Assembly (NCBI GenBank): GCA_025677825.1
Contig: JAIXMO010000011.1
Location: forward strand, 159,001 to 223,000
Reading direction: 5' to 3'
From: Helicostylum pulchrum
Taxonomy: Eukaryota > Mucoromycota > Mucoromycetes > Mucorales > Mucoraceae
DNA: 64,000 nt
Part shown: piece after piece, positions 14,804 through 15,955 of the stretch
Position numbering within the stretch: position 1 is the stretch's first letter
How the letters are laid out: every line of letters begins with the position of its first letter
Notes under the pieces: model-generated
The model's database searches: none
What the model was told of the DNA's origin: nothing
Seen by the model: the letters and a program-made list of their open reading frames with translations, nothing else
Position numbers and translations under genes: made by a program

Positions 14804-15163
14804 TTTTTTTTTTTTTTCAGTTAAAAAGAAAAAAAAAGGGAAAAGGAAGACGCAAAAAAAAAAAGAGGGGGGAGAGAAAGTTACATGTGTAAATATAGAA
14901 TAAAACAAATAAATAATAATCGGATCATCCGGGTTTGTTCAAGTTGTAATACACTTATTACATTGAAAAAAAACCAATTACCATATATGGACATTGAGCT
15001 ATATAAATCAAAACTCAAACAAGTCCGGTCCGGAACAAGAAAAAAGAGTGCGTTTTTTTTTTTCATTGAACGGTTGGGAGCCCAGCAAGTGTACAAGCAA
15101 TCCATCACCTCAAAGATGATTGCACCTCCTCTTTCAGCTCCCATAAGCACCCATTATTAAACA
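14804..15163. promoter_or_regulatory. Divergent spacer upstream of the polyproline gene and eL24
   Basis: A head-to-head region. It has poly-A/T runs and a 91-codon frame (14885-15160, +) with no family resemblance, and a near mirror frame on the other strand; both look like chance frames in leader sequence. It must contain both promoters, but no TATA or CCAAT box was assigned. Confidence 0.45.
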
Positions 15164-15955
15164 ATGAAGTAATGTATCGATCTAAACCATCACAGATGAA
15201 AAAAAAAATCCATCAATTTTACTTGAAACAAAACAACAGATGAACTGATGGATATTTTGCGATTTTTTTTTTTTTTTTTTTATTACTGTAGGCTTGAGAT
15301 TTGCTCCTTCTCTGGTCACAAGATTTACCCTTCCAAGGGTAAGACCTACGTCCGTATTGATTCTAGGTAACGTATTCTACACATTGCTCAACTTTTATAT
15401 ATTTTTACTGACTGTCATTTTCATTTTTTTTTAGAGTAAGCGAACTTTGTCAAAAAGAAGAAAGAAAGAAAAAAGGGAAAAAAAATATACTAATGTGATT
15501 TTTTTTTGTAGCATTTCCGTTTCATCAGCGGAAAGGCCTGTTCTTACTTCATTCAACGTTTGAACCCCCGTAAGATCAAGTGGACTGTCATCTACCGTCG
15601 TTTGAATAAGAAGGGTATGCAAGAAGAATTCCAAAAGAAGCGTTCTCGCCGTACCGTCAAGCACGAACGTGCTGTTGTCGGTGCCTCTTGGGATGCCATT
15701 CGTGCCAAGCGTAACCAAAAGCCCGATGCTCGTGCTGCTGCTCGTCAAGCTGCTATCTCCAAGTCCAAGGATGCCAAGAAGGCCGCTAATGCTGCCAAGA
15801 AGGCTGCTACTCCTTCCGTAAGTTTTTTTATAAAATAAGGGAAAAAAAACCATTGTACTCAATTTTTTTTTTACATTGTATAGGGTTCTCAAGCTAAGGT
15901 TAGCAAGCAAGGTGCTAAGGGTTTCGCCCCTAAGGCCGCTGCCACCTCTCGCTAA
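15164..15955 (+). CDS. RPL24: 60S ribosomal protein eL24 with a one-nucleotide exon
   Basis: A large-subunit cytosolic ribosomal protein bridging to the 40S subunit. Exons are 15164-15168 (ATGAA), 15292-15366, 15435 (single A), 15512-15817 and 15884-15955: 459 nt, 152 residues. The body is unmistakable: LEICSFSGHKIYPSKGKTYV, IDSR-H-FRFISGK, LNPRKIKWTVIYRRLNKKG, KKRSRRTVKHERAVVGASW and an Ala/Lys-rich tail. Splicing straight from 15366 to 15512 breaks the frame, giving a stop after about 17 codons. The intervening DNA contains two complete introns, 15367-15434 (GTAACG…TTTTAG) and 15436-15511 (GTAAGC, TACTAAT branch, TTGTAG), that leave one A between them and restore AGA-CAT (Arg-His), the expected family sequence. 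An assembly indel is the main alternative. Confidence 0.92.

Follow-up and report, generated by a model that had tools for sequence, protein, structure and literature searches.

Analysis of a 64,000-nt stretch of the Helicostylum pulchrum genome (the window; its contig, C13, has 721,015 bases, and the genome comprises 32.2 Mb in 168 contigs) showed an intact gene for ribosomal protein eL24 in which, very probably, a single A serves as an internal exon between two GT-AG introns that are one base apart and would be removed by ordered splicing. An earlier note, written from the DNA letters, had proposed this exon. The three eL24 copies of the genome and an enumeration of the alternatives support the proposal, which is very likely right.

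Structure of the eL24 gene

The gene is on the + strand and starts with a 5-nt coding exon, ATGAA (15164 to 15168); the same ATGAA|GTAA boundary is found in both other eL24 copies. Intron 0 (123 nt; 15169 to 15291) is followed by exon 2 (75 nt; 15292 to 15366), which ends with GATTCTAG and leaves an incomplete codon (...GAT TCT AG). Intron 1 (68 nt; 15367 to 15434) has a weak donor, GTAACG, the acceptor TTTTTTTTTAG, and a candidate branch site, TACTGAC, at 15406 to 15412. The one-nucleotide exon, A, at 15435 completes codon 27 (AG+A = Arg). Intron 2 (76 nt; 15436 to 15511) has the donor GTAAGC and the acceptor TTTTTTTTGTAG, and contains a 34-nt purine run (15452 to 15485) and a candidate branch site, TACTAAT (15488 to 15494). 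Exon 4 (306 nt; 15512 to 15817; CAT TTC CGT TTC at its start), intron 3 (66 nt; 15818 to 15883), and a last coding exon of 72 nt including the stop (15884 to 15955) complete the gene. Both complete introns were verified in the sequence with the coordinates, donors, and acceptors that the earlier note had given, as was its TACTAAT site for the second intron. The coding exons (5+75+1+306+72) add up to the 459 nt that it had counted and encode 152 amino acids.

With the A included, the protein reads Arg and then His-Phe-Arg-Phe, which that note had recognized as the family sequence. It matches Pfam PF01246 at 98 bits (cut-off, 27), and residues 1 to 152 match the solved eL24 chain 7pzy_7 (L24A; E, 1.1e-43). 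The corresponding motif, V[RK]xD followed by x[FY].[FLI], was kept in 112 of the 114 sequences from outside Mucorales, Umbelopsidales, and Endogonales among the matches listed in two eL24 protein searches (P0051 onward).

Upstream of all three eL24 copies there is a TTCCGGACCG element, located in the window at 15026 to 15037 on the - strand, the opposite orientation there. One one-mismatch match to TTCCGGACCG was present in the 64-kb window compared to 0.05 expected, and 5 of 100 shuffles had one too; it might conceivably be a promoter element.

Reading frame and chance occurrence

Exon 2, ending in phase 2, and exon 4, starting in phase 0, are together one base short. The 145-nt span between them contains just one AG-N-GT, and this is TTTAG-A-GTAAGC. 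If the A is left out, the frame stops after codon 43, in line with the early frame loss that had been predicted for this gene, and retention of intron 1 or intron 2 leads to early stops as well.

The chance occurrence of such a site was estimated from 20,000 dinucleotide shuffles of the span. The bare AGNGT is not rare; it appeared in 9.4% of the shuffles of the window span and in 9 to 50% over the copies. The more specific YAG-N-GTRNG, with about 40 nt of intron room on either side, appeared in 0.11% of the window-span shuffles (fractions of 0.0011, 0.0152, and 0.0102 for the window copy and the C1 and C2 copies described below). These three values are not to be treated as independent and multiplied, because the copies share descent.

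The same arrangement in three gene copies

Two further eL24 copies were found in the H. pulchrum genome, on C1 (L007) and C2 (L008). Both have the 5-nt first exon and the same four intron places as the window copy. First, a TAG-A-GTA(A/T)G block is present in all three copies, with GTAAGC (window), GTAAGT (C1), or GTATGT (C2) after the A. Second, the coding sequence is 459 nt (152 amino acids) in all three, and each requires the A. Third, the spans between exons 2 and 4 are 145, 208, and 219 nt long (window, C1, and C2, respectively), and AGNGT occurs in them once, once, and twice; use of the second site in C2 would leave one intron shorter than the required minimum of 45 nt. All three copies are under purifying selection (Ks, 0.22 to 0.34; Ka/Ks, 0.025 to 0.064). 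Alignment of introns 1 and 2 between the copies exceeded shuffles modestly (z, 1.2 to 2.9), meaning that these introns are not fully saturated. The copies do not amount to three independent chances since they are paralogues related by descent.

The earlier note had worried that the +1 shift might be an assembly or sequencing indel. A base error would produce such a shift, and the gene sits among homopolymers. However, the C1 and C2 loci show the same +1 need and the same block, and the deposited models of many other species also depart at this junction. Because three separately assembled copies (C13, C1, and C2) agree in both respects, an indel is excluded unless the same error was made three times, and its probability is negligible.

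Other ways of splicing the span

In each copy, we enumerated the single GT-AG introns of 45 to 300 nt that have their donor in exon 2 or the span and their acceptor in the span or among the first 60 nt of exon 4. Three such introns per copy keep the frame, and all of them delete residues (KTY|HFRF, KTY|ACSYF, and DSSGK). Within 40 nt, none of the three copies has a single intron, GT-AG or GC-AG, that preserves the length. AT-AC pairs were found only in C1 (-11) and C2 (+37), at unrelated offsets. When the outer sites were fixed and a middle exon of 1 to 30 nt was allowed, the A was the sole solution in the window copy and in C2; C1 has one extra solution, a 10-nt exon that inserts residues. 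The 1-nt A is thus the only middle exon of 1 to 30 nt common to all three copies, and among the enumerated canonical splicings, only the one-nucleotide exon keeps the family protein.

Two of the frame-keeping introns correspond to deposited models. In one, the donor at 15367 is paired with an acceptor (ATCAG|C) that lies within the next exon, so that DSSGK replaces DSRHFRFISGK. This GT-AG join is in frame in all three copies and is used by one deposited Mucor mucedo model (P0015), but it removes RHFRFI, part of the motif kept in 112 of 114 sequences, and gives no account of the shared TAG-A-GTANG block. P0015, although from another species, scores 78.1 bits against the Pfam family compared to 98 bits for the protein with the one-nucleotide exon. 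Moreover, CATTTCCGTTTCAT(C/T)AG is preserved in all three copies with a third-position change only, while the introns differ. A transcript with TCTAGACATTTC would be incompatible with this join, which we regard as very unlikely.

In the other, a donor inside exon 2 (TAC|GTCCGT) is joined with the acceptor at 15511, which yields KTY|HFRF. This join too is in frame in all three copies, and it is identical to P0003, the deposited model of the window gene, which was reproduced exactly by a start at 15248, reading to 15349, the donor GTCCGT, and a join at 15512; 11 of the 49 deposited models with an altered junction (see below) show the same type of pattern. Against it, the join drops VRIDSR, which forms the remaining half of the motif found in 112 of the 114 sequences, and lowers the Pfam score to 70.6 from 98 bits, and GTCCGT or GTTCGT is off the donor profile of the genome (A at the third intron base, 0.89). 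It resembles the detour of a gene finder round an exon beyond its model, and a transcript with GTCCGTATTGATTCTAGA joined to CATTTC would be incompatible with it. The chance that it is the true structure is slighter still. The 5-nt first exon, ATGAA in all three copies, is a likely source of wrong deposited starts such as that of P0003.

A single noncanonical intron, either TA-AG from 15368 or GT-TA ending at 15510, would also give Arg (AGG) and keep the length, and the TA-AG offset is present in all three copies. Yet none of the copies offers an equivalent with GT-AG or GC-AG ends inside 40 nt, and the internal acceptor-A-donor block stays unexplained, making such an intron highly improbable. 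The one-nucleotide exon is the reading followed below.

Splice signals and order of intron removal

Splice sites were compared with a reference set from 264 kb of the genome, in which 91 of 173 candidate introns (median, 70 nt) were kept after selection by coding potential and then splice-score refinement. Since this set was selected by splice score, low percentiles of weak donors are partly built in. A stricter intron finder, which kept 20 introns and found intron 3, was replaced by this looser one; none of the window's eL24 introns, intron 3 included, is among the looser finder's picks.

The acceptors before the A, scored in their spliced context (A then C), are at the 97th, 62nd, and 68th percentiles of the 91 introns for the window, C1, and C2, respectively, and the donors after it at the 37th, 62nd, and 13th. 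The intron 1 donor of the window copy, GTAACG, is weak, with 3.5 bits (1st percentile of the score-selected set). In all three copies, intron 1 has ACTRAC at the corresponding place, and intron 2 has CTAAT in the window and C2 copies. No CTRAY branch motif was found near the end of C1 intron 2, which weighs little because CTRAY is present in just 25 of the 91 reference introns. By U2-type criteria, the ends and acceptors fit, the exceptions being the weak donor of window intron 1 and C1 intron 2 without the motif.

Each intron may be recognized separately by the major spliceosome (intron definition), with introns 1 and 2 excised one after the other. Sequential removal would follow from the argument in PMC4674806, by which simultaneous splicing is very unlikely for two introns separated by one base. 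If intron 1 were removed first, the donor context AGA|GTAAG would be unchanged, as the AG at the end of exon 2 would take the place of the AG at the end of intron 1. If intron 2 were removed first, the acceptor TAG|A before the A would be left intact. Both orders thus appear workable, and splice-site strengths point to no consistent order across the copies.

Intron 2 of the three copies contains purine runs of 34, 31, and 26 nt (window, C1, and C2), at the 99th percentile of the 91 introns, compared to 2 to 18 nt in the other eL24 introns (the longest, 18 nt, being in C1 intron 1). The run is possibly a splicing enhancer. We treat it as a lead rather than as evidence, given the common descent of the paralogues and the readiness of simple repeats to expand. 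A match of C83 (L006) to intron 2 was rejected; it is just an A/G-rich low-complexity stretch. Separately, the Absidia glauca model P0044 contains the peptide KTKQKKGAEK, seemingly intron read-through, which hints at a comparable purine stretch.

Deposited eL24 models in related fungi

Protein hits were representatives of 90%-identity clusters, and the first search was evaluated on the best 120 of 268. Among these, 68 models were assigned by genus placement to Mucorales or Umbelopsidales, and 49 of the 68 differ from the family pattern at the junction, covering 37 of the 47 species labels in the two orders; these are counts over related species, not independent ones. The 19 intact models (of 68) may be either correctly modeled or from lineages without the arrangement. 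All 41 other named fungi in the same list are intact at the junction. In 15 of the 49 altered models the upstream exon was lost or misread, which the neighboring 5-nt exon might also cause, and removal of these cases gives a stricter count of 34 of 53.

A second search (best 120 of 1268) added 65 new hits, of which its pattern flagged 8; 7 of these have the standard length and one, P0126, is altered. Over the listed matches of both searches, altered models thus make up 1 of 93 other named hits (P0126) and 1 of 23 unnamed sequences (P0120, Umbelopsis-like), although more may be missed elsewhere because only the best 120 are listed and shortened proteins rank lower. Five sequences without the IYP anchor (P0160, P0162, and P0167, named; P0165 and P0173, unnamed) have the intact pattern and were counted as unaltered. 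The single Endogonales model listed (P0107) is altered as well. P0126, from Acaulospora morrowiae, reads DNK|KLNPRK and is 15 residues short, and it is the sole altered named model outside Mucorales, Umbelopsidales, and Endogonales among those listed. Invariance in a 20-sequence alignment was not used as evidence, as all its members were chosen among models intact at the site.

Some altered models carry suggestive traces of the arrangement. For instance, those that continue past DSR read V-R, V-S, or V-C (P0008, P0010, P0079, and P0117 among them), which would fit AGA followed by a donor GTNNGN. Two others translate exon 2 in a frame shifted by one base: P0026 (Mucor saturninus) reads ...VLILGKY and P0030 (Choanephora) ...VLTPGKL, both resembling ...VLILGNV, the off-frame translation of the window gene. 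These two may reflect AG followed directly by GNAAR, a phase-2 donor, and not AGAGTAA, which would stop. The arrangement is probably old, common to Mucorales and Umbelopsidales, and widely misannotated. The viral and genome contig collections searched yielded no confirmed DNA of a related fungus, and outside the H. pulchrum genome, its conservation is judged from protein models.

RLP24 and the probable origin of the two introns

RLP24, a ribosome-assembly paralogue according to record titles, provides a control. In both H. pulchrum RLP24 copies, L010 and L014 (- strand), a single intron, of phase 0, follows the first 81 nt (27 codons), and this is the position of eL24 intron 2 (5+75+1 = 81 nt, including the A). 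Among the best 120 of 5425 hits, 48 of the 49 named Mucorales and Umbelopsidales RLP24 models are of the family length at the junction; the exception, P0236, begins at the junction. The Endogonales model P0237 is regular; the comparison used the 49 named models of the two orders alone. The difference from eL24 is large (49 of 68 versus 1 of 49; Fisher P, 6e-16; stricter count, 34 of 53; P, 4e-12), relatedness of the models being ignored. Since the RLP24 models are regular in the same orders, the trouble seems to reside in eL24 rather than in these genomes as a whole.

The simplest reading is that intron 2 is probably the older one, predating the split of eL24 and RLP24, and that intron 1 would have been inserted later, one base upstream, in an ancestor of Mucorales and Umbelopsidales. 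Intron 1 is probably the newcomer because RLP24 shares just the intron 2 position. Independent gain of an intron at the same place in both genes is the competing possibility, and it retains some probability.

Implications

Exons of one base lie at the minimum size that the spliceosome can define. The eL24 gene is expected to be highly expressed and has three paralogues, meaning that the order and efficiency of intron removal should be easy to follow by ordinary RNA-seq. If the exon spans two orders, which the deposited proteins suggest, a conserved ribosomal protein is wrong at one place in many public proteomes. The comparison of eL24 with RLP24 also provides a clear case of apparent intron gain at a distance of one base from an older intron, and such a gain followed by loss of the older intron is a plausible route to apparent one-base intron sliding. 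A more speculative and unlikely idea is that the exon arose once, before Mucorales and Umbelopsidales split, and was kept in nearly all copies as a frame switch. A skipped base would then lead to the stop after codon 43, and splicing efficiency, aided by the purine stretch, would tune eL24 through mRNA decay.

Comparison with known systems

The earlier note had stated that there are a few known examples of 1-nt exons in plants and fungi, and the cited papers bear this out, naming three nuclear genes with such an exon, APC11, VPS55, and CYP621A (PMC4674806, PMC8831610, and PMC12940212). The 2026 Fusarium paper (PMC12940212) calls its own case the "second" known; the 2022 paper PMC8831610 already had VPS55 besides APC11. 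In the parts available, PMC9702816, PMC10808074, and PMC12409088 cite APC11 only. A mitochondrial case is described for placozoan cox1 (PMC5436844), and the "microexon" in the available text of a Mortierella paper (PMC4462047) is a mapping option. Among the open-licence papers listed, none deals with a one-base exon of Mucorales or of eL24 in its title or at the start of its abstract.

Among systems with adjoining introns, the stwintrons of fungi also need consecutive excision. As described, however, the internal intron of a stwintron splits a splice signal of the external one and nothing is retained, whereas the eL24 introns are complete and leave one base. We rejected eL24 as a stwintron: each intron has its own donor and acceptor, and in all three copies the reading frame is lost when the span is excised as a whole. 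Recursive splice sites, or ratchet points, are similar in that an acceptor abuts a donor and removal is stepwise. They are not known to retain any base; eL24 differs in retaining one and in having spans of 145 to 219 nt rather than long introns.

A close parallel is APC11, which has a constitutive one-nucleotide exon in Arabidopsis and other land plants that annotation missed (PMC4674806 and PMC8831610). As in eL24, a single-base internal exon lies between two introns, for which the authors suggest sequential removal (PMC4674806). APC11 is a different gene in plants, and its exon was demonstrated by transcription and translation assays, whereas eL24 is a core ribosomal protein with three paralogues in a fungus, known here from DNA. 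The VPS55 exon, directly 5' of the donor GTRAGT, is likewise a conserved 1-nt exon; it is kept over a large clade of land plants and absent from annotations, and some plants reportedly have two transcript forms (PMC8831610). It is kept by only one of two flowering-plant paralogue clades, in contrast to eL24, where all three paralogues keep it. In Fusarium CYP621A, a case that its authors describe as the first in fungi, the exon was inferred from a frame mismatch and confirmed by SRA reads (PMC12940212). Like eL24, it is fungal and was recognized from a frame mismatch, its span being about twice that of a normal intron, but it belongs to an ascomycete P450 family of one genus with the base G, as opposed to the base A in Mucoromycota. 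Judged from gene sequences and protein models, the eL24 exon is thus probably a new example of a kind already known, with an unusually broad distribution.
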